This document shows positions 1 to 10,400 of a stretch of DNA of 10,724 bases, one piece after another. Below the pieces are notes generated by a model, which had not been told where the DNA came from, searched no databases, and worked only from the letters and a program-made list of their open reading frames with translations. The first letter of the stretch is position 1; the number at the start of each line of letters is the position of its first letter. Both the position numbers and the translations under genes were made by a program. Origin of the DNA: Candidatus Tectimicrobiota bacterium (GTDB lineage: Bacteria; JACPSX01); assembly GCA_016193065.1 (NCBI GenBank), contig JACPSX010000109.1, positions 1 to 10,724 on the forward strand, read 5' to 3'.

Positions 1-1439
1 GGGCTGTGGAGCTGATCTCCAAATTTCCGCTTCACTTCCCGCAGAAGCTCTTGCGGAGTCTCTACGGCAACAGGGAACTCACTGCGCCAGTCCCACGGCT
101 TACACGCGTCGATGATCGCTCGAGAGTTGAACCACTTCTCCTTATTTGGACCCGGACGAATGGCCGGGTCCAAGGGACCGCTCAAGCAGTGGGTCAGGAT
201 TTCAATGGCGTTCTGCGGATCGCTCCGCGTACCCAATGCCCAGAGAACCTCGTCGTTGTCATAGATATCGATATCGTCGTCCACGACAATCGTATAACGG
301 CCCATATATGCCCCCGCCCCGCACTGTGCGAGCACCCGGGCGGCCTGGCGGGAATGCCCCGCGTATCGCTGACGTATGGCAATGATGCTCAACATGGTTT
401 CCGCGGCCGCATCGTGGAAGCGAATCGCTTTCACATCAGGCACACCCGCTTTTTCCAGTTGCTCCAGGACCACGGCTTCACGCAGCATGGATGAGAACAC
501 CAGCGGCGCAACGGAGGGCTTCAGGGACGGCACGCCGAGGATGATCGGATCGTTTCGATACATGAGCGAAGTGACTTTAATGGTGGAGACGAGCCGGCTG
601 CTGCTCGCATAATAGCCGTGCCACTCGCCGAAGGGTCCTTCGGGCCGCTCGTCCTCAGGGGAAGAAATCCCTTCGATGACAATTTCCGAGGTGGCCGGGA
701 TCGGCAACCCGGTGTGCGGGGCTTGGATCACCTCGATCGGCTCTCCGCGAACTCCGCCTGCCCAATTATATTCAGAGACCCCGTAGGGCAAACTCGCTGA
801 GCCGGCCAGCAGGAGCAGCGGATCATGGCCGAACGACACGGCAACACGCATGGACTCACCCCTGGCGAACAACTGGTCCCTATGAATTCGGGCGTGATGG
901 CTGGGCGATACATGAAAACTCAGCGTCTTCTCATCGTGAATCATGATCCGATAGGTCCCCAGGTTCACCCAACCGGATTCCGGATCTCGCGTGACGGTAA
1001 CGCTGCCTGTGCCGATGTACCGGCCGCCGTCCTGCGTATGATATTTCGGGGCCGGCAGAGAGAACATGTCGATGTCTTTGCCTTCCCGAATATTTTGCAG
1101 GACAGGCCCATCAGATACAATCTCCGGCGCCAGCGAGGGCAGCGAATTTATTTTTTCGCGCAATTTGTAAGAAAACTCGGTGCGCTCGATTCCAGGGTCA
1201 AAATCCAAGGTCATGGCCACGCGGGGCAGCGTTGCCAGTGGATCCAGGAGAACGCGGTAGCCTTTCGGATACCCAACGATCTCATCGCAAAGGAGCGCCC
1301 ATCGTGTCTCCTTCTTGTTTCGCGCCACCATTTCAGAAAGTGCGGACATCTCCATGTCCCAGTGCACTCCGTTGACCCGGCGAAGCTCGTCGAGCTGTTG
1401 AGCATGCATCATCCATTCTCGAAGATCTTTGTGCGGCAT
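1..1439 (-). CDS. UbiD-family prenylated-FMN-dependent decarboxylase (C-terminus cut by the window edge)
   Basis: Predicted to carry out reversible decarboxylation of an aromatic, heteroaromatic or unsaturated carboxylic acid with prenylated FMN in the cytoplasm. The visible 479 residues run from an ATG at 1439 to the left edge without a stop, so only the extreme C-terminus is missing. AGGAGG lies about 11 nt upstream of the ATG (1451-1456). The family core is clear: GGRYIGTGSVTVTRDPE (residues 138-154), WVNLGTYR (157-164) and PEGPFGE (266-272). Against Aspergillus Fdc1 as I recall it, the catalytic Arg-Glu-Glu maps to R164, E267 and E272. The metal/phosphate ligands map to N159, H182 and E223. 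All six are present, so the enzyme looks active. Substrate cannot be read from sequence; UbiD paralogues act on very different acids. No ubiX-type prenyltransferase is in the window, so cofactor must come from elsewhere. It follows the permease gene by 205 nt. Confidence 0.94.
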   Translation of the reverse strand, partial: MPHKDLREWMMHAQQLDELRRVNGVHWDMEMSALSEMVARNKKETRWALLCDEIVGYPKGYRVLLDPLATLPRVAMTLDFDPGIERTEFSYKLREKINSLPSLAPEIVSDGPVLQNIREGKDIDMFSLPAPKYHTQDGGRYIGTGSVTVTRDPESGWVNLGTYRIMIHDEKTLSFHVSPSHHARIHRDQLFARGESMRVAVSFGHDPLLLLAGSASLPYGVSEYNWAGGVRGEPIEVIQAPHTGLPIPATSEIVIEGISSPEDERPEGPFGEWHGYYASSSRLVSTIKVTSLMYRNDPIILGVPSLKPSVAPLVFSSMLREAVVLEQLEKAGVPDVKAIRFHDAAAETMLSIIAIRQRYAGHSRQAARVLAQCGAGAYMGRYTIVVDDDIDIYDNDEVLWALGTRSDPQNAIEILTHCLSGPLDPAIRPGPNKEKWFNSRAIIDACKPWDWRSEFPVAVETPQELLREVKRKFGDQLHS

Positions 1440-1644: not shown

Positions 1645-3420
1645 TCAGCTAACGCTCATACTGAGACCAAGCCGCCGCACGACCAAAGCCACCCCGACCG
1701 CCAGGACTGTCACAATGAGCCCCAGGATAGCGGCGCTCTCTATATTGCCGGCCGCCGAGAACTCAAACATCAGCAGCGATAGAGTCCTGCTTGACGGAGT
1801 GACCAGCAGGACGGTCGTGCTGATGTCACGAACAGCTCCAATGAAGGTGACTGCGAACAGGCTCACGAGGGTTGGAGCAATGAGCGGCAGCATGATCCGG
1901 CGATAGGTCCTAAACCAGCTGGCTCCACATACCCGCGAAGAAAATTCAAGCTCCTGAGATATTTGGAGGAATGCGACGCTGGAAAGATTCACGCCCAGCG
2001 GGAGCTCCTTGATAAATAGAGCGAGCAATAAGGCCCCGATGTTGCCGTAGAGGAGTCCCAGCACTGGCATGGAAAGCAGCAACCACAACAATCCGATGCC
2101 CAGCAACATCCCCGGAATGGCCCACGGCAGCCACGTCATCAATCCGATCAACTTGCGGCCGGTCAGATTCGACCGTGCCAGCACGTAGCCCAGAACCGAG
2201 TAAAAAACCAATCCGAGTATCGACGTGCTCAAGCTCAGGACCAGCGTGTTCCTCACGGCAAGACTGAAAACGGGGCTTTCAAGTACGCGTCGCCAGTGGT
2301 CCAGAGTGAACGGATGACTGATCCCAAAAAAGCCGAAGAGCCGCATGAAAGATCCGAGCACCAAGACCGTGACAGGCAATACAACACCGATTCCAATATA
2401 CGCAAACAGCGCGGCCGAAGCAGCGTACCGCCAACGTCCGGTCAGCAACGGCCGCATTGACATACCTCGACCCGTCACGGTCGCGTAGTTGCGGGAAGAG
2501 ACGATCCGTTGGTACAAAAGGGCCAGGAGACATAAGACGCCCAGGATAAGAGTGCTGAGGGCCATTGCCTGAGGGATCTGGGGGGGCTGATAATTAATCA
2601 GATCATAGATCCGCGTAGCGTACACGTAAATGCCTGAGCGCGAGCCCAGGAGCTGCTCGACCTCAAACGCTTCCAGGCTCCGGATCAGGCCGGCGAGTAC
2701 CGCGGTCAGGCTGGCGGGGAGAATCAGAGGAAAAGTGATCCGCCGCAGGGTCTGCCAGTTTTTGGCCCCACACGTGCGCGATACCTCTTCCATGGAGGCG
2801 TCCATGATTCTAAAAGCCGGGGCCAGGAGCATCGTCATAACCGGTACGGTGGCGATGCTCATATGAACCCACAAGATGCCGACTACGGACTGAATATTCA
2901 ATGGCCCAAGCTGCCAGGGCAACTTCTTCAGAAAGATATTGATCAGGCCGCTGTTGGGATCCAGCAAAAGGACCCAACCCAGCGTGATCGGCAAAGCGGG
3001 AAGGAAGAAGGCCGTCCACAGAGCCAGCTCGATCACGGAACGGCCAGGGATCTGAGCGCGAATTAACAACCAGGAAATCAGAAAGGCGATCGCGACCGCC
3101 AGCGGTGCTCGAACGGACAGGATAAGGCTGTACGTCAGCGATGACAATGTCCGCGAGCTCCCAAAGATCGCATCGCTCCAGCCGCTCAGCCCGAAGGTCC
3201 ATGGCTGGCTTGGTTGGGCAACGTTGAATGAGTTGACCACAACAAAGGCGATTGGGAGAACTGTAATAGCGGCAACGCCGATCACCAACGCGATTCCCAG
3301 CCACCGATCCCGCGTGTGCCGCGCCAACAATTGCGGCCGCTCTTCCAACGGGAATCTCCCCTCGACCGCGCTCAACCTCCCCGACTGTCTATCAGCCACT
3401 GGACCCTTTCTACCAACCAC
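1645..3420 (-). CDS. ABC importer permease, fused two-domain type (COG1178-like, iron/thiamine-importer class)
   Basis: Inner-membrane channel subunit that should work with the ATPase and solute-binding protein encoded just upstream. At 591 residues it is two binding-protein-dependent permease domains in one chain, as in FbpB/ThiP-type transporters, with about 12 hydrophobic segments. The first is at about 40-65 and a second block starts at about 333. Each half carries the cytoplasmic EAA loop that contacts the ATPase: residues 211-231 (EEVSRTCGAKNWQTLRRITF) and 491-512 (LEFSSRVCGASWFRTYRRIM). The stated start is a GTG at 3420, the first in-frame start after an upstream stop, with only a weak AGG nearby. 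A GTG at 3399 preceded by AGAAAGGG is a reasonable alternative and would remove 7 residues. The transported substrate is unknown; this architecture is shared by ferric-ion, thiamine, phosphonate and organic-acid importers. Confidence 0.94.
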   Translation of the reverse strand: MVGRKGPVADRQSGRLSAVEGRFPLEERPQLLARHTRDRWLGIALVIGVAAITVLPIAFVVVNSFNVAQPSQPWTFGLSGWSDAIFGSSRTLSSLTYSLILSVRAPLAVAIAFLISWLLIRAQIPGRSVIELALWTAFFLPALPITLGWVLLLDPNSGLINIFLKKLPWQLGPLNIQSVVGILWVHMSIATVPVMTMLLAPAFRIMDASMEEVSRTCGAKNWQTLRRITFPLILPASLTAVLAGLIRSLEAFEVEQLLGSRSGIYVYATRIYDLINYQPPQIPQAMALSTLILGVLCLLALLYQRIVSSRNYATVTGRGMSMRPLLTGRWRYAASAALFAYIGIGVVLPVTVLVLGSFMRLFGFFGISHPFTLDHWRRVLESPVFSLAVRNTLVLSLSTSILGLVFYSVLGYVLARSNLTGRKLIGLMTWLPWAIPGMLLGIGLLWLLLSMPVLGLLYGNIGALLLALFIKELPLGVNLSSVAFLQISQELEFSSRVCGASWFRTYRRIMLPLIAPTLVSLFAVTFIGAVRDISTTVLLVTPSSRTLSLLMFEFSAAGNIESAAILGLIVTVLAVGVALVVRRLGLSMSVS

Positions 3421-3538: not shown

Positions 3539-4628
3539 TCAGCGGCCGAGGGCTTGTTCAATCTGCTTGCGCATCTTGGGTGCTATGTTGACGTAGTAGT
3601 CCTCTTCATACTGGTTGCGGTACTTGGTTTTCGCCTTCGGGATGATATACTGCGGAATCGTAGGGACGACAACGTCGGTACGCCGGCTCGGTTCCAACGA
3701 AATCGCCGTATAGATTTCCTGCCCCCGCTTGGACATGAACCAGTTCACAAATACCGCCGCCGCATTCGGATGGGGCGCGTTCGCAACGATCTTCGGCACG
3801 GCGCTCCCGCCGCTGACGCTCAGCACGCCGTCCGTCGGGAAGACTCGTTCCAGAGGAAACCCTTCTTTCCGGAACGCTTCCGCGTGCGCGGGTATCACGG
3901 CCAGCGCGATCGGTTGACTTCCTTGAGCCATCAACCGCACAACCTCCCGCGCGTCGCGCGTTAACACGAGATCTTGTCCCTTATAGAGAGCTTTCAGGTA
4001 CTCGGGACCGAAATCCTCGAGCAAGGCACGAGCCGTCGCTCCGCCGGCCCCCACCGTCACTTCCTGGGCCACAATCTTCCCCTTGTACTCCGGCTTCAGC
4101 AGGTCCTTCCACGAAGTGATCTTCTTGGGATCGATAACCCGCGTGTTGACCATAAGGTCAATGTGCACCCACTCGGAAACCATCGGCATGTACTGCTGGG
4201 CCTTATCTGCCCACTTGATCCCTCCCTCCCGCCATTTGGATGAATCAGTCACATCGGCGAGCGCAAGCTTGGGTCGAACCGGCGCCAGTAGGCCTTTCGG
4301 ATACAGATCAAGAAATTCCGTAACACCTGAGATGAGGATGTTGGTTGTGTTCTTTCCCGCTGCGGATTCCCGTTCGATCCGGAGCTGAGCAGGACCGGTC
4401 GGCTCGGCTGTGAAGTCGAGCCGGATGCCGAATTCTTCCTGCGGGAATATGACCCGGAAGAATGATGCGGACGCTCCCTTCTTTTTTCGCTGCCTGGACC
4501 ATGGCCGTCCAGCCGGCCTGGTCAGCCGCAAAAGGCTGGCTGGACGCCAAGAGCAATCCGGCAAATGTCATAACCAAAAGCCGGGCGATACTGCGAAGTG
4601 ATCGTGAAGAGTACGGACGCTTTAACAT
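3539..4628 (-). pseudogene. ABC importer periplasmic solute-binding protein (COG1840/FbpA-like), frameshifted
   Basis: Captures the substrate in the periplasm and delivers it to the adjacent permease. The true start is the ATG at 4628, with AGGAGAGG 7 nt upstream (4636-4643). It begins a signal peptide: basic MLKRPYSSRSLRS, a hydrophobic stretch at about 14-30, and likely cleavage after QPFAA at residue 35. The mature start WTAMVQAAKKEGSVRIILPG (40-59) fits the family. After about 4452 this frame becomes nonsense, while the +1-shifted frame carries the rest (IFPQEEFGIRLDFTAEP onward, then DLLKPEYKGKIVAQ, down to the stop at 3539). The junction is also short: homologues have roughly 8-10 more residues between the first strand and the GI-x-x-x-F/Y strand. 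A deletion of about 26-29 nt would explain both shift and shortening. This is either a real inactivating mutation or a consensus error. A nearby A6 run (about 4483-4488) is an alternative error site, but the in-frame match extends past it. The longest open frame (from 4564) has no signal peptide and is not the natural protein. Confidence 0.85.
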
Positions 4629-4635
4629 TTTCTTC

Positions 4636-4643
4636 CCTCTCCT
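4636..4643 (-). promoter_or_regulatory. Ribosome binding site deciding the solute-binding-protein start
   Basis: AGGAGAGG on the minus strand, 7 nt before the ATG at 4628. It supports this start over the in-frame start at 4679, which would put 17 extra hydrophilic residues before the signal peptide. Confidence 0.75.
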
Positions 4644-4688
4644 TCCGTTTACTGTAAGACCTTCTTTCGCATGGCCCAAAGCTGGGGT

Positions 4689-5780
4689 TTACTCGTCAGA
4701 GGCCGGCCAAGTTTTCACCCTCTCTGCATTCATTCTGAGAACAACCTCTTGTCCACGTTCAAGGGCAGTATCTTTTGACGTATCAAAAAGCAATTGAGTC
4801 TCGCCCACTCTCAATACGTATTCGATGTGATCTCCACAATAGATTAGATCTTCGACGATCCCGCGGATCCCATTCTTCGAGATCGCATCCGAAAGCGGCT
4901 CGATAGTTACGTCCTCAGGACGAATTGCCAATCGAACTCGATTACCGTTCGGCGAAGAATCATGGTGCGCAGAAATGGAATCAGGCGTAACGTCAATCTG
5001 GAAAACCGTTCCATTCGCCGATCCCAGGACGACTGGCAGAGTAAGAACACGACCCACGAAACTTTGCACAAAAAAACTCGCGGGCGACTCGTAGACCTCC
5101 AATGGCGTGCCAAGCTGCTCGATTTTCCCCTGGCGCATAACTGCGACTCGATTGGCCAGTGACATTGCCTCGACCTGATCATGCGTGACGTAGAGAATTG
5201 TCATACCCAGGCGTCTCTGCAGCGCCTTCAGTTGTAGACGCATCTCAGCGCGGAGCTTCGCGTCAAGGTTACTCAAGGGCTCATCGAGCAGTAAGATGTC
5301 CGGTTCGTAGGCAAGAGCGCGGGCGAGCGCTACCCGTTGCTGCTGCCCGCCGCTTAGTTGGGTGGCTCGCCGCATCCCGAATTCGCCCAACCCGACCAGG
5401 TTTAAAACTTCTTCAACCTTCTCCTGAATCTTGGCCCGCGGGAAGCCGCGGATTTCGAGCGGGTAAGCAATGTTCTTCCCCACGGTCATATGAGGCCAGA
5501 TTGCATAGGACTGAAACACGAGGCCCAGATTGCGCTTCTCAGCCGAGACGAACACGCGCCGGCTGGCCGAAGCCACGGTCTTACCGCGGATCTTGATTTC
5601 GCCGCCCTCGGGCTCTTCAAGACCGGCTACCAAGCGCAACGTTGTACTCTTGCCACAGCCGCTGGGACCAAGCAGGGCCAATACTTCGCCTCGGCAAAGA
5701 TCGAAGCTCACGCTGTCGACGGCCATGACTCGCCCGTAACTTTTCTGAAGAGCACGGACTTCAAGAATTAGATCGTTCAT
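4689..5780 (-). CDS. ABC importer ATP-binding subunit (FbpC/PotA-like, with C-terminal TOBE-type domain)
   Basis: Cytoplasmic ATPase that powers the importer encoded by the next two genes. The 363-residue product has all nucleotide-binding motifs: Walker A GPSGCGKST (38-46), Q-loop Q90, signature LSGGQQQR (142-149), Walker B ILLLDE (162-167), D-loop SNLD (170-173) and switch H200. A C-terminal beta-rich region from about 240, including RLAIRPEDVTIEPL, matches the TOBE-type regulatory domain of this subfamily. I chose the ATG at 5780, with AGGA 9 nt upstream at 5790-5793. An in-frame TTG at 5789 would sit directly against that AGGA and is unlikely. The stop is 60 nt before the solute-binding-protein start, so ATPase, binding protein and permease form one unit in that order. 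The upstream gap (5781-5999, 219 nt) has no convincing ORF or clear promoter; it is the likeliest place for an internal promoter. Confidence 0.97.
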   Translation of the reverse strand: MNDLILEVRALQKSYGRVMAVDSVSFDLCRGEVLALLGPSGCGKSTTLRLVAGLEEPEGGEIKIRGKTVASASRRVFVSAEKRNLGLVFQSYAIWPHMTVGKNIAYPLEIRGFPRAKIQEKVEEVLNLVGLGEFGMRRATQLSGGQQQRVALARALAYEPDILLLDEPLSNLDAKLRAEMRLQLKALQRRLGMTILYVTHDQVEAMSLANRVAVMRQGKIEQLGTPLEVYESPASFFVQSFVGRVLTLPVVLGSANGTVFQIDVTPDSISAHHDSSPNGNRVRLAIRPEDVTIEPLSDAISKNGIRGIVEDLIYCGDHIEYVLRVGETQLLFDTSKDTALERGQEVVLRMNAERVKTWPASDE

Positions 5781-5999
5781 AATATCCAATCCTAGAGTGA
5801 CAGAAGCGGAGACGAGGCCACGCCTACAACGTGCCTAAGCGCATCGCGCAATCAATCAACCAGCCCGAACTGCGATGGCTACGGTGACTCATGCACCGGC
5901 CCAGAATCTTTTCCTCTGCCGTTGACTCGATGAACAAAAATTAGAAGCCTCCATCTGCTCTCCAACCCTTTCCATCGCTTCTTGCGTGCTGCTCTGCCT

Positions 6000-7340
6000 T
6001 TAAATCACTTCCTTGTGCTTGTCGAGCCAGTCCCTCGGTTCCCGGGCGTAATCTTGCCAGTAGTCCCCCGGCACACTAATTCCTGGGACGGGGGGGATCC
6101 ACTCCTCGCGGAGGATTTCCTTGGGATCGCCGTACTTGGCGGCCAAGGCCACTACCTCCGGATCGTCCAGCGCCGTCAAGTGCCCGTTATCGACCACTTT
6201 GATTCTCTTTCCGTCGCGGCAAATAATCTCGTAAGTCGGGAACAGAAGGTGCACGTGCATGTGCCCGTAGGGATGCTTTTTTTCTTCCGCCCAATTCTCT
6301 GAAGGCCCGTACAGCACGGTCCCGATACCAATGTGGATTATGCCCGATCGGAGCCTCTCCGAGAGAGCACCGGCGCCCGATAGCATAAACGCGTTCGAGG
6401 GCCGCCTCATCTTTGGGTTCGTTCCAATCGCCAACTCCCACCACCAGAAAAGGCCTTCGCTCGGGTATTCTGGGTAACGGATTTTTTTTCCAATATCAAG
6501 AAGCTCCCGCCAAGCATCACCGTACTTGCCACCCTCCTCTATTCGAACAGCCTTGCCCCCCTCAATGTGAAGCTTGATACGGGGAAACGGGCTGCTGATG
6601 TGATTGATCGTCCCCGCCACCACGCCGGAGGCGTCTTCACTGCTGCGCTCATAGGGCGGCGTTGGCCGGCCAAATAAGTGCCCGAAGAAGGGCTTTTCTT
6701 GGAAAAGGGGCAGGGATTTGGTTTGGGCGTATCGATTCAGGTCGTAAGACTCTTCAGGAAATGTGAAGGTAATATCCGTGCCTTCAGGGTCTGTCAGCCG
6801 AACTTTGCCTCCCCTGCCCTTGTTCCATATTTGATCCCATGCTCTATGATTTATTGCGTCCCATACCTCGTATGGAAAATCGGCCGCGGGAAATACCTCA
6901 CGGCTTGTCCAGGGTATGCCTCCATAGCGGAACTTTTTTGCCGGCAGGGAACCGCCCAAAGTGTGGATCAAAATGTCATATTCCCCTCGCTCAGCGACTT
7001 CCTCCGCCCACCTCACACGCTCGATCCACTGTCGAACCTCATTTACTTCGGGAACACCCGGACAGTTATGCATAAACCCCAGCAACTCGTCTGTGTAGTT
7101 CAAAGGACGATCCGGGCCCATGTCAACGCTGATCAGATCCACCTTGCCCGGAAGCTTTCGGATGGCTTGCACAATGGCATCAACAACTGCCTGATCATAA
7201 AAACTGTTCACCACAAGAAGAGCACGTTCCCCGGGCTTCATACCGTAACCCGCAGGTAACGATCCCCCCACAAACGAGCCCACGACCAAGCGCCTAGCTG
7301 TCTCTAATAAACGGGCGTCATAAGGGATCGGGGAACACAT
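6000..7340 (-). CDS. M29 aminopeptidase/NicX-like metalloenzyme (hydrolase or ring-opening dioxygenase)
   Basis: A 446-residue cytoplasmic protein without signal peptide. It resembles the fold shared by M29 metallo-aminopeptidases (AmpS/AmpT) and the Fe(II) enzyme NicX, which opens 2,5-dihydroxypyridine. Family-like blocks are the N-terminal nucleotide-binding-like half (ERALLVVNSFYDQAV, 38-52), VRLTDPEGTDITFTF (180-194), WELAIGTNP (301-309), SGIIHIGIG (332-340) and HPYGHMHVHLLF (356-367). Likely metal ligands are E302, H336 and the histidines at 360-364. M29 and NicX usually have H-x-D at the last site; here it is H-x-H, so metal number and chemistry may differ. The ATG at 7340 has AGGAAGGA 10 nt upstream (7351-7358). 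It starts 58 nt after the Dop-like gene, so co-transcription is likely. Peptidase, amidase (removing a group added by the neighbouring ligases) and aromatic-ring dioxygenase all remain possible. Family assignment is moderate; substrate is unknown. Confidence 0.7.
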   Translation of the reverse strand: MCSPIPYDARLLETARRLVVGSFVGGSLPAGYGMKPGERALLVVNSFYDQAVVDAIVQAIRKLPGKVDLISVDMGPDRPLNYTDELLGFMHNCPGVPEVNEVRQWIERVRWAEEVAERGEYDILIHTLGGSLPAKKFRYGGIPWTSREVFPAADFPYEVWDAINHRAWDQIWNKGRGGKVRLTDPEGTDITFTFPEESYDLNRYAQTKSLPLFQEKPFFGHLFGRPTPPYERSSEDASGVVAGTINHISSPFPRIKLHIEGGKAVRIEEGGKYGDAWRELLDIGKKIRYPEYPSEGLFWWWELAIGTNPKMRRPSNAFMLSGAGALSERLRSGIIHIGIGTVLYGPSENWAEEKKHPYGHMHVHLLFPTYEIICRDGKRIKVVDNGHLTALDDPEVVALAAKYGDPKEILREEWIPPVPGISVPGDYWQDYAREPRDWLDKHKEVI

Positions 7341-7398: not shown

Positions 7399-8988
7399 CT
7401 ATCCGGAGGCTCGCACACGTCGCGCGCTTTCCTCAACCGACTCGGCAGAAGCGATCATTTGAGAACTCTCCTCCTCTCCCCAGCACAGAGGGTCCGGCAG
7501 CCTAAGCACACCCCCCCGGTAGTAAATCCTTTCCCAGGAGGCTTGTAGAACCTCGGGTCCGAATTTCCTCAGCACCGCGCTCCGCAGATAGTCTCGGGTG
7601 TCACCCGGACCGTGCATCATTGCCGTAGCAATATCTCGCCGTAGGTCTGTTGCCTTACAACCAGCCAGCCGCTTCTCAGCATACTCGAGTGATGATTCGA
7701 GATTATGCAAACAGTCACAGCTGTCCAAGTCCACTTCCTCGCCTGTGTACCAGCGCACTCCTTCATCAATCAGCGAAAACTGGTTGCATACTGTAAGCGC
7801 TTCCTCTCCCTGGGCTCCATACTCTTCCAACAGGGCAAGTTTTGTGACCCAATCTATCCCGTGAACTAATGAATCGAAATCCCCGGTTGCCAATTGCGTG
7901 ATTACCGTGGAAATCAACTCAACGGCTGCGTGATCTTCCGGCGAGCCCTCTCGGGCCACCAACTGCCCGATCTTCTCTAGATAGAAGCCCCCCAGTATGT
8001 CCCGGAGGGCGTGAGCCGTGCGTCCGTTTTCAAGCTGAACCTGCCAGTCCCTTGGCTCCAAGCCAAATACCAGCTGAACACCCGATCGTAGCGGGTGCGC
8101 CAGCTGAGGTGCTCCATCCAGCAGTCCTCGCTGGAAAGCGGCTACGATCAAAGTCTGCAATGCGTCCACAATATAAAGTTGAAACGGACTTCTCAGCGCC
8201 TCCAGGTTGATATCGTGCAGCCGCCAATAGGAGACGTCGTCCGCATGCGGCTCGTCACGTTCGTTGACCAGACCACGCCAGAACGTGGTGTCCAGGGTAG
8301 ATACAACGCGGACAAAGCAGATACGTGGGGAAATGGCGAACCTGAGTTCCTGACCGAAAAGTTCAGCATCCCGCCAGTCAACCTCCCATTGCGGCCCCGA
8401 TTTTCGAACGGGCACCATGTTTCCGCTGCCGATGAGCGGCAGTCGGGCGATCGTGTATGGCACCAGGGCTCGGCGTACCTGTTCCCAGTTCCGCAAGTTG
8501 CAAATACTGCGGGGCAGCAGAAGATTGTGATGAGTCCCGTAGGCCACTGAGCGAATGAGGCCGTCTTCAACTGTCGTGGACAGGTTGTTCTTGTAAGCCG
8601 CCACGGGTTTTTCGAACCGCTTGCTCGCCGCCTTGGCGGCAAGATAAACCAACACCTCACCTGCCAGAGAATATCGCACCAGATCCCGCGGATTTCTGAC
8701 CACAGGACTCGAAACCTCAAAGTGCACGGCGTCGTCGTACAATCGCATGCCGTTATACGCAACAGGGAATGGACCTCCGTCTGCCGCCCAGTTGGAGGCG
8801 ATCGACCTCTCATAGGCAAGATTACCCGCTTCATCCGTAACAGCCCATTTCGCGGGCGCGGTGTACCCTGCATCATGCAGGCAGTTCAGAGCCGTGTCGA
8901 TGAGCAGACGCCTGGGCACTTGATCCGCCGGGCAGGTGTTCATGGCGTACTCTTGTTCAAGTCCCCTGGCCACGGAGCGAACAATCAC
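7399..8988 (-). CDS. Dop/PafA superfamily enzyme (Pup_ligase fold), most like depupylase/deamidase Dop
   Basis: Dop removes Pup from tagged proteins or deamidates Pup's terminal Gln; the fold is that of glutamine synthetase-type carboxylate-amine ligases. The 529-residue product shows the N-terminal metal motif GLEQEYAM (E11, E13), RLYDDAVHFE (83-91; D86 aligns with the catalytic Asp, E91 with a metal ligand), AYKNN (131-135), NERDEPHAD (242-250), RLHD (256-259), GIDWVTKL (377-384) and DTRDYLR (463-469). The C-terminal ASWERIYY...GGVLRLP region matches Dop rather than PafA. The long segment between EYAM and RLYDD (about 17-80) includes a stretch resembling the Dop loop. One oddity is GTHHN (151-155), where Dop and PafA have a Glu (SHEN/CHEN). 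The GTG start at 8988 overlaps the preceding gene's TGA in GTGA and has GGGAGGGAGG 5 nt upstream. With no Pup or proteasome genes nearby, the true substrate is uncertain and could be a small molecule. Confidence 0.87.
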   Translation of the reverse strand: MIVRSVARGLEQEYAMNTCPADQVPRRLLIDTALNCLHDAGYTAPAKWAVTDEAGNLAYERSIASNWAADGGPFPVAYNGMRLYDDAVHFEVSSPVVRNPRDLVRYSLAGEVLVYLAAKAASKRFEKPVAAYKNNLSTTVEDGLIRSVAYGTHHNLLLPRSICNLRNWEQVRRALVPYTIARLPLIGSGNMVPVRKSGPQWEVDWRDAELFGQELRFAISPRICFVRVVSTLDTTFWRGLVNERDEPHADDVSYWRLHDINLEALRSPFQLYIVDALQTLIVAAFQRGLLDGAPQLAHPLRSGVQLVFGLEPRDWQVQLENGRTAHALRDILGGFYLEKIGQLVAREGSPEDHAAVELISTVITQLATGDFDSLVHGIDWVTKLALLEEYGAQGEEALTVCNQFSLIDEGVRWYTGEEVDLDSCDCLHNLESSLEYAEKRLAGCKATDLRRDIATAMMHGPGDTRDYLRSAVLRKFGPEVLQASWERIYYRGGVLRLPDPLCWGEEESSQMIASAESVEESARRVRASG

Positions 8989-10400
8989 GCGGGCCTCCCT
9001 CCCATATCGAACGAGATGTGTTTCATAAGCTCAGTTCTTGTCTCTTTGTTCCATCCATCCAGCTTCAGAAGCTCGTATTTTCTGCCTCGGACCGTCACGG
9101 AATCCCAATCAAGTTGCTCCAGCTCCACGCCGAACTGCTCGGCCAGCTCCCGACGGAGAGCGGCTCGCGAGTCAGGCGGCGGGTTCACCATGGCCTGGCG
9201 CACTTCCTCCTCTGACGTAAGCCTTTCTATCGGGAGCTCCGCCTCAAGTTCAGCGAAAGTTGAATCCGTCAACGACTTGAACTGGAAATCCAGCGTTTCT
9301 TTTTCCTCCCAAGTTCCTTGCCGCAGTTGAAAGTATTCATTGCCATTGAGCTCGATCACGTCCAGTTTGACGGCCCAATCCAGCCGTCGAGACAGCCGGG
9401 TGATGGCGCTCGTCGCGAGACAGTCCAGGGTATCTTCGAGCAGATTCAACAGAAGGCTATCAGACCGGGCGATCCCAAGCTTCTGCGCAAGCCGCTGGAT
9501 TGGATCCATGTAGAACTCTCGCAAAAACTCCACCGCGTCCATCCTGCTCCCGTTCTCAAGAGTGATCACCCAGTTCCCTGAAACGTTTGAGGAGATTTTC
9601 TGTGCTTCTTCCACGGGATCCTGAATCCGGGGGACGCTGTGAATCAATCCCTGTTCAAAGCAATTGATGATCGCTGCGGTGACGCCGTTTCGGAGGAACG
9701 TCGTACCATCGCATCGGGCCCCCTCTCCGCTACACAGATGAAGGCGAGCGAATCCATTGCCGGTGTTCGATCGCTTCCCCAGGGCAATGAACGGGAAGTC
9801 TCCAGTGACCTTGTCAGAAACTATTTTCCGCATAAAGAATTGGCGTGGCGACAACACGTATCGCCCTTGATAGTAGCCGCCGGTCCCACAGAGCAGTGGA
9901 CGAACCACCAGGAATGGGATTAAGCATTCTACAAGTTGACTCAGGTGATCTTCCCGCACGAGGTAGGATTCATGCAGCCCCCTGGGGGCATGCGACGTTT
10001 TTCTTTTATCACTGTAGGTGATGCTGCTTTTGTAACAGTGGACTCCCAGGCGGGAACAGGTCTCAGCCGTGACAAGATCACATGCCCTCTCATAGGCAAC
10101 CAGCTCTCTGGCCGAAGAGCATTCCGGAGTGCACAGCTCAAGAAGATCATGCCCGGCCGGGTGATCGATATATCCCCTTCCCCCGTTCTTGAGGAAGTTG
10201 GATGCACCTCCCCGCAACGGGATCAGATAGCTGCTGTTCTGCCGGCTATCCCCGTCGCCTTGGAGGTACTTCATGAGCCGATTTGCATCTGTCCATCCTT
10301 CCTCACGGATTGGAAGCGCGTACTCCACCTCCACGCCTTGCCAGCGGTGATCCAACAAATTCTCTCTTGCTCCCAAAGCTCCCTCGCTCCCCTGAGTCAC
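8985..10400 (-). CDS. Divergent PafA/Dop superfamily amidoligase (Pup_ligase fold), most like Pup ligase PafA
   Basis: PafA uses ATP to join Pup's C-terminal glutamate side chain to a protein lysine. This 471-residue homologue keeps the N-terminal GVEVEYAL (E24, E26) and SNFLKNGGRGYID (67-79), whose D79 aligns with the catalytic Asp. It also keeps LCTPEC (89-94), GLHESYLV (141-148), LIPFLVVRPLLCGTG (160-174), RYVLSPRQ (180-187), RLH (219-221), RRLDWAVKL (338-346) and PPPDSRAALRREL (407-419). The short linker before the catalytic Asp and the C-terminal layout are PafA-like. However, the strongly conserved R-D-E-P-H-A-D segment is replaced by KRSNTGNGFARLH (209-221), so nucleotide or substrate handling may be altered. 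The chosen start is the GTG at 10400, 10 nt after the upstream stop, with GGGAGGGG close before it; TTG codons further in are alternatives. The frame stays open to 10652, but that part overlaps the upstream oxidoreductase gene and reads as nonsense. It is translationally coupled to the Dop-like gene. Confidence 0.82.
   Translation of the reverse strand: MTQGSEGALGARENLLDHRWQGVEVEYALPIREEGWTDANRLMKYLQGDGDSRQNSSYLIPLRGGASNFLKNGGRGYIDHPAGHDLLELCTPECSSARELVAYERACDLVTAETCSRLGVHCYKSSITYSDKRKTSHAPRGLHESYLVREDHLSQLVECLIPFLVVRPLLCGTGGYYQGRYVLSPRQFFMRKIVSDKVTGDFPFIALGKRSNTGNGFARLHLCSGEGARCDGTTFLRNGVTAAIINCFEQGLIHSVPRIQDPVEEAQKISSNVSGNWVITLENGSRMDAVEFLREFYMDPIQRLAQKLGIARSDSLLLNLLEDTLDCLATSAITRLSRRLDWAVKLDVIELNGNEYFQLRQGTWEEKETLDFQFKSLTDSTFAELEAELPIERLTSEEEVRQAMVNPPPDSRAALRRELAEQFGVELEQLDWDSVTVRGRKYELLKLDGWNKETRTELMKHISFDMGGRPA
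8994..9003 (-). promoter_or_regulatory. Ribosome binding site of the Dop-like gene inside the PafA-like gene's end
   Basis: GGGAGGGAGG on the minus strand, 5 nt before the GTG at 8988. It lies within the last codons of the PafA-like gene, where it encodes the Gly-Gly-Arg of the terminus. With the GTGA overlap it implies tight translational coupling and matched output of the two enzymes. Confidence 0.7.

Follow-up and report, generated by a model that had tools for sequence, protein, structure and literature searches.

What do two adjacent enzymes of the Pup-ligase superfamily do in a gene cluster that otherwise looks catabolic? The question is raised by a 10,724-base stretch of DNA from Candidatus Tectimicrobiota bacterium, here called the window, which is the entire contig C68 of a draft genome of 2.9 Mb (294 contigs, 86% complete). 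In the genome set that we compared, this genome is the sole member of its own phylum. To our knowledge, PafA and Dop act solely on Pup-type protein tags. The window encodes a PafA-like and a Dop-like protein. In the reading that we favor, and that we regard as about evenly balanced between right and wrong, they are a PafA/Dop-type pair that has diverged and been drawn into a catabolic operon, where they would form and cleave an amide on a small molecule.

The family membership of both proteins was clear. As the sequence-only reading of this DNA had proposed, they are two neighboring members of the superfamily, scoring 198.8 bits (PafA-like) and 175.7 bits (Dop-like) against PF03136 (Pup_ligase; Pfam cut-off 25), and the source genome has no other PF03136 gene. 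Both reading frames are intact, with codon-position GC resembling that of the neighboring genes, and the 176-199 bit Pfam matches and codon structure together ruled out chance or spurious open reading frames (ORFs). The PafA-like GTG start lies 10 nucleotides past the stop codon of a probable monooxygenase gene fragment and is accompanied by a stretch resembling a ribosome-binding site (GGGAGGGG). The Dop-like GTG start overlaps the PafA-like stop codon in the sequence GTGA, the 4-nucleotide overlap noticed earlier, and the three genes are thus tightly packed. Searches of solved structures with both sequences returned only Dop and PafA. The AlphaFold model of the PafA-like protein (predicted template modeling (TM) score 0.85) found Dop (4b0r) and PafA (4bjr) as its best PDB matches, with TM-scores of 0.75-0.81 (query-normalized, best chains), against 0.48 for the next family, YbdK (GCS2). 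This ranking ruled out GCS2 or glutamine synthetase as the identity of the pair. The GCS2/YbdK carboxylate-amine ligases belong to the same superfamily, but the PafA-like model is far nearer to PafA/Dop, whose C-terminal region is present in both proteins.

The sequence-only reading had placed one protein closer to PafA and the other closer to Dop. By anatomy this stood, one protein being Dop-like and the other lacking the Dop-loop, but the NCBIfam models did not bear it out, both proteins scoring higher with Dop. Against TIGR03688 (Dop; equivalog cut-off 492) the PafA-like protein reached 160.6 bits and the Dop-like protein 157.7 bits; against TIGR03686 (PafA; equivalog cut-off 551) the values were 142.2 and 97.4 bits. 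All four lie far below their cut-offs. The name PafA-like is accordingly based on the missing Dop-loop and not on score.

Active sites were compared at 62 positions that are near-invariant across 28 pupylation-type homologs, of which 41 are retained in the Dop-like protein and 35 in the PafA-like protein. Common to both are the Glu pair of the ExE motif, the catalytic Asp (D94 in Acidothermus Dop) and the next Glu, the nucleotide-contacting Arg and Tyr (R-x-Y-x-D), the HxN His, the SxR Arg, and both the Arg and the His of RLH. In the PafA-like protein the ExE pair lies at residues 24/26 and the catalytic residue is Asp79, and the Dop-loop is missing, as in PafA. The corresponding Dop-like residues are ExE 11/13, Trp48, Asp86, Glu91, His153, Thr234, RDEPH (244-248) and His258. 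Trp48 aligns with the Dop-loop Trp, a conserved Dop feature. Together with the alpha-loop Thr, an RDEPH that includes the R227-type Arg, and a C-terminal Trp, this residue gives the protein an almost complete set of Dop residues. The R(P)IINTRDEPH segment, which does not vary across the compared pupylation enzymes, is mostly retained in the Dop-like protein and gone from the PafA-like protein, where RPIINTRDEPH has become FPFIALGKRSN and the RDEPH site reads GKRSN (residues 208-212). In Acidothermus Dop, R227 holds the catalytic phosphate (PMC8599861, from which the residue roles are taken). Because the segment with this phosphate-holding Arg is lost, substrate handling by the PafA-like protein should differ.

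Active sites retained amid such divergence argue for working enzymes, at least one of which would have an altered substrate. The same residues bear on a reading in which the Dop-like protein is the single catalyst, an ATP-requiring amidohydrolase or deamidase, and the PafA-like protein a weakened partner or regulator. This would fit the loss of RDEPH and of the R227-equivalent Arg from one protein, the near-complete set in the other and a gene overlap that suggests coupled expression. We nevertheless find it improbable, since a dead partner would not need the ExE, Arg, Tyr, Asp, Glu, His and RLH residues that the PafA-like protein retains, and the Lys-Arg of GKRSN nearby could substitute for the lost Arg.

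In two free trees, both proteins fell outside the canonical PafA and Dop clades, with branch lengths of about 3.7-4.8 changes per site. Branches of this length are what a canonical pupylation locus might show if it were a relic decaying under relaxed constraint, and the adjoining binding-protein gene is apparently frameshifted. Such a relic seems most improbable to us, however, as the frames are intact over 471 + 529 codons, the ribosome-binding-like sites and the overlap are preserved, and the catalytic residues were retained while the rest diverged. Neither 386 genomes spread across phyla, nor 95 from a Methylomirabilota-like phylum, nor a plasmid search yielded a close relative of the pair; the matches were canonical proteins, only about 25-43% identical. 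Exact-peptide scans returned zero orthologs from either the viral or the GTDB contigs, as did a degenerate-peptide scan of the viral contigs. In the degenerate-peptide scan of GTDB, the best 80 among the matches listed were about 26-31% identical, and a match of 23.6% identity in a phage collection lies in an unverified, unannotated record. PafA/Dop-type enzymes are themselves common in the Methylomirabilota-like phylum (that of G225), with matches in 73 of its 95 genomes.

The absence of Pup, proteasome and ring ATPase from view, as first reported, is true of the whole contig, and a search of the genome for pup or UBact, prcA/prcB and mpa likewise gave nothing over cut-off. No match to Pup was found in the source genome by profile search, and the best UBact match was 13.3 bits, under the cut-off of 27.8. 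A 20S proteasome was not found in the genome, its sole proteasome-fold gene being HslV, which adjoins HslU. Nor did any Mpa/ARC match in the genome exceed the cut-off, and the best AAA match carries a CDC48_N domain. Elsewhere in this genome, positions 21-1988 of locus L062 (G000:C288) encode a protein with CDC48_N and a double AAA, though the genome search found no 20S proteasome. On the operon strand of the contig, zero short ORFs end in G[EQ]. Among canonical comparison loci, a GG[EQ]-ended ORF lies within 800 nucleotides of the enzymes in 68/80, and pup has been described as invariably adjoining a PafA gene (PMC2588565). A canonical pupylation locus at the window was ruled out, since a tag ORF was lacking and neither a proteasome nor Mpa exceeded its cut-off. 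The sequence-only reading had named pup and proteasome genes elsewhere in the genome, with both proteins nesting in canonical clades, as the mark of an ordinary locus; we found neither the genes nor, in the free trees, the nesting.

Compared with known PafA/Dop systems (PF03136; TIGR03686, TIGR03688), the pair thus has the same fold, C-terminal domain and ExE + R-Y-D/E core, and the same arrangement of adjacent paired genes, one with the Dop-loop Trp and one without a Dop-loop. It differs in being only about 20-35% identical, far under the equivalog cut-offs, in the PafA-like loss of RDEPH, in having no adjacent pup and no proteasome or Mpa over cut-off, and in lying in a catabolic operon. UBact systems (PF20513, NF033388) are alike in having PafA/Dop-type enzymes outside Actinobacteria, but the source genome has no UBact match over cut-off and the window no tag ORF.

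Other diverged pairs behave differently. The divergent PafA/Dop pairs at L057 (G098:C35), L058 (G292:C18, 1-14000) and L059 (G321:C72) each have an adjoining GG[EQ]-ended Pup-like ORF (L057 9971-10171, L058 2898-3185 and L059 9066-9296). These ORFs match neither the PF05639 (Pup) nor the UBact models, so surveys that use those models overlook them. The loci resemble the window in that the PafA/Dop pair is strongly diverged (at most 288 bits for the L057 pair), but they have their own GG[EQ] ORF beside the enzymes, and L058 also an ARC-like AAA and ThiF, of which the window has none. The neighbors in L058 include an ARC/Mpa-like AAA protein, a protein like ThiF/E1, one that weakly matches JAB, and an unknown protein of 168 residues resembling one in L057; the locus is possibly a mixed Pup and ubiquitin-like locus.

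These loci give substance to a further explanation of the window, a divergent pupylation whose tag is encoded elsewhere and has diverged beyond the reach of the models, the PafA-like protein attaching it and the Dop-like protein deamidating and removing it without a proteasome. Such a tag could be missed, because the genome is incomplete (86%, in 294 contigs) and Pup-like ORFs can evade the Pup and UBact models; Pup diverges fast, as the three ORFs above illustrate. Among the residues by which the C-terminus of Pup and the phosphate are handled, the Dop-like protein also retains the Dop-loop Trp, the alpha-loop Thr, RDEPH and the His residues. We think this explanation unlikely, but one to be taken seriously: the operon strand has no tag-like ORF, the two models found nothing over cut-off in the genome, pup, by the description cited above (PMC2588565), always lies next to a PafA gene, and the PafA-like protein has lost a segment invariant in the pupylation enzymes compared.

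The setting of the pair also bears on its role. All eight main genes of the contig are on the minus strand (Table 1), no terminator was predicted between genes on this strand, and Rfam gave zero family matches on the contig.

Table 1. Features of the 10,724-base window
Feature	Position	Strand	Basis or remark
UbiD-family (de)carboxylase	3..1439	-	PF01977, 217 bits; truncated by contig end
ATP-binding cassette (ABC) importer permease, 591 residues, two BPD_transp_1 stretches	1645..3420	-	Domain matches
Periplasmic binding protein, SBP_bac_6/8	3539..4679	-	Split over two frames
ABC importer ATPase, TOBE_2 domain, polyamine / 2-aminoethylphosphonate / Fe(III) type	4689..5789	-	Pfam, NCBIfam
NicX (2,5-dihydroxypyridine dioxygenase)/M29-like protein, 446 residues	6000..7340	-	Via intermediate sequence
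Dop-like protein, 529 residues, GTG start	7399..8988	-	PF03136, alignments
GTGA overlap of Dop-like start and PafA-like stop, 4 nucleotides	8985..8988	-	Sequence
PafA-like protein, 471 residues, GTG start	8985..10400	-	PF03136, alignments, AlphaFold model
Probable luciferase-like flavin monooxygenase, C-terminal 103 residues	10411..10722	-	Weak PDB matches; truncated by contig end

The neighbors named from the sequence, an ABC importer, UbiD, an M29/NicX-like enzyme and a flavin monooxygenase, proved right, the NicX likeness by way of an intermediate and the monooxygenase from a 103-residue fragment. That fragment has no Pfam match; its five PDB matches are all weak (E 0.3-0.7) and all luciferase-fold flavin monooxygenases, RutA being the best. 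The NicX-like protein has no direct Pfam or PDB match and its single-sequence structure prediction failed (predicted local distance difference test score 33). It does match a Streptomyces plasmid protein (E 4e-5; hhalign 97.6%) that in turn matches NicX (7cn3, E 1.3e-5). In the alignment of this NicX-like family (window 6000-7340; L168 13793-15166), at what we take to be the NicX ligand positions, Glu302 replaces the His before the GLNPK-type motif and HVH replaces HCD; these changes could keep a two-His-one-carboxylate set in altered order. For the UbiD protein, the best NCBIfam model is phenylphosphate carboxylase beta, under its cut-off. The ABC importer is of the polyamine, aminoethylphosphonate or iron type, with no confident substrate. 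In its binding-protein gene (4300-4679), the signal peptide and the mature part lie in different frames, an apparent frameshift that is either an assembly error or the mark of a pseudogene.

Paralogs of part of the operon add to its catabolic look. Locus L168 of the same genome (G000:C20) has another UbiD/NicX-like pair next to genes for a TctC receptor and a DctM transporter; CoA-transferases, an AMP-ligase and another UbiD lie nearby. The contig may have been mis-binned, being foreign to the genome, as its composition is at the genome's edge and the lowest among 26 contigs. However, the rare NicX-like family has 2 further copies in the source genome, as against relatives in 1/385 other genomes at the same cut-off, and one of these copies adjoins a UbiD paralog. 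The NicX-like and UbiD paralogs therefore link the contig to this genome, its marginal composition notwithstanding.

The sequence-only reading had offered two choices: a tagging system whose tag is encoded elsewhere, or a pair put to a new use. The second UbiD/NicX-like pair strengthened the catabolic context, and we lean to the latter choice. For recruitment of the pair into catabolism, the observed basis is the fold, the ExE/R-Y-D/E core, a near-complete Dop site in one protein, the 4-nucleotide overlap, a single-strand run with catabolic genes, and a tag and proteasome that went undetected. To this we add by inference the activity of both proteins, their assignment as ligase and hydrolase, and a small substrate and its identity. 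The ABC importer would bring the compound in. One member of the pair would use ATP to join a carboxylate to an amine in a gamma-glutamyl-type amide, the amine being a pathway substrate or intermediate, and the Dop-like protein would cleave such an amide. The flavin monooxygenase, the NicX-like enzyme and UbiD would work on the ring, in a scheme of glutamylation, oxidation and release such as may be drawn from aniline degradation. A precedent for a ligase, a hydrolase and an oxygenase acting jointly on an amine exists in the degradation of aniline and naphthylamine (PMC11335346), one such set being gamma-glutamylanilide synthase, a GAT-like hydrolase and a dioxygenase. The likeness to these glutamyl organic amide synthetase systems (AtdA1/AtdA2, NpaA1) is one of working only, in that their catabolic operons combine a glutamine-synthetase-fold ligase with an oxygenase and a hydrolase of the amide. 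There, a ligase from the glutamine synthetase family is paired with a GAT-like hydrolase, whereas here both proteins are of the PafA/Dop family, and the precedent is an analogy and not a matter of descent.

Several points weigh against recruitment into catabolism. The habit of the family is protein tagging, as 3/3 other strongly divergent pairs examined adjoin a Pup-like ORF. In approximately unbiased (AU) tests, nesting was not rejected either for the Dop-like protein with Dop (p 0.43) or for the PafA-like protein with PafA (p 0.25), so that the position outside the canonical clades was seen in the free trees but was not required by these tests. A sister relationship of the two proteins was likewise not rejected (p 0.36), so that their origin could fit any of the three placements. 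The PafA-like protein, to judge from its lost RDEPH, could be inactive or regulatory, and confidence in its model is low around that motif. An orthologous pair was not found in the genomes and contigs scanned; conservation of the neighborhood therefore cannot be shown, and the operon is a single observation. In addition, the contig contains just a 103-residue fragment of the oxygenase.

The wider proposal, that the PafA/Dop fold here left protein tagging for small-molecule catabolism, with a ligase and an amidohydrolase that together conjugate a pathway intermediate and free it again, we put tentatively, at slightly less than even. No report of PafA/Dop outside pupylation was found in the open-access literature, and a small-molecule role, if true, would be a use of the family that we have found nowhere described. 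As it stands, this is a known enzyme pair in a variant form, and only a demonstrated small-molecule role would make it something new in kind. It has been proposed that the ancestors of PafA and Dop were small-molecule ligases akin to gamma-glutamyl-cysteine synthetase (PMC2588565). If the pair does act as we suggest, the fold would have returned to small molecules; or else it would serve a tag unlike any known.

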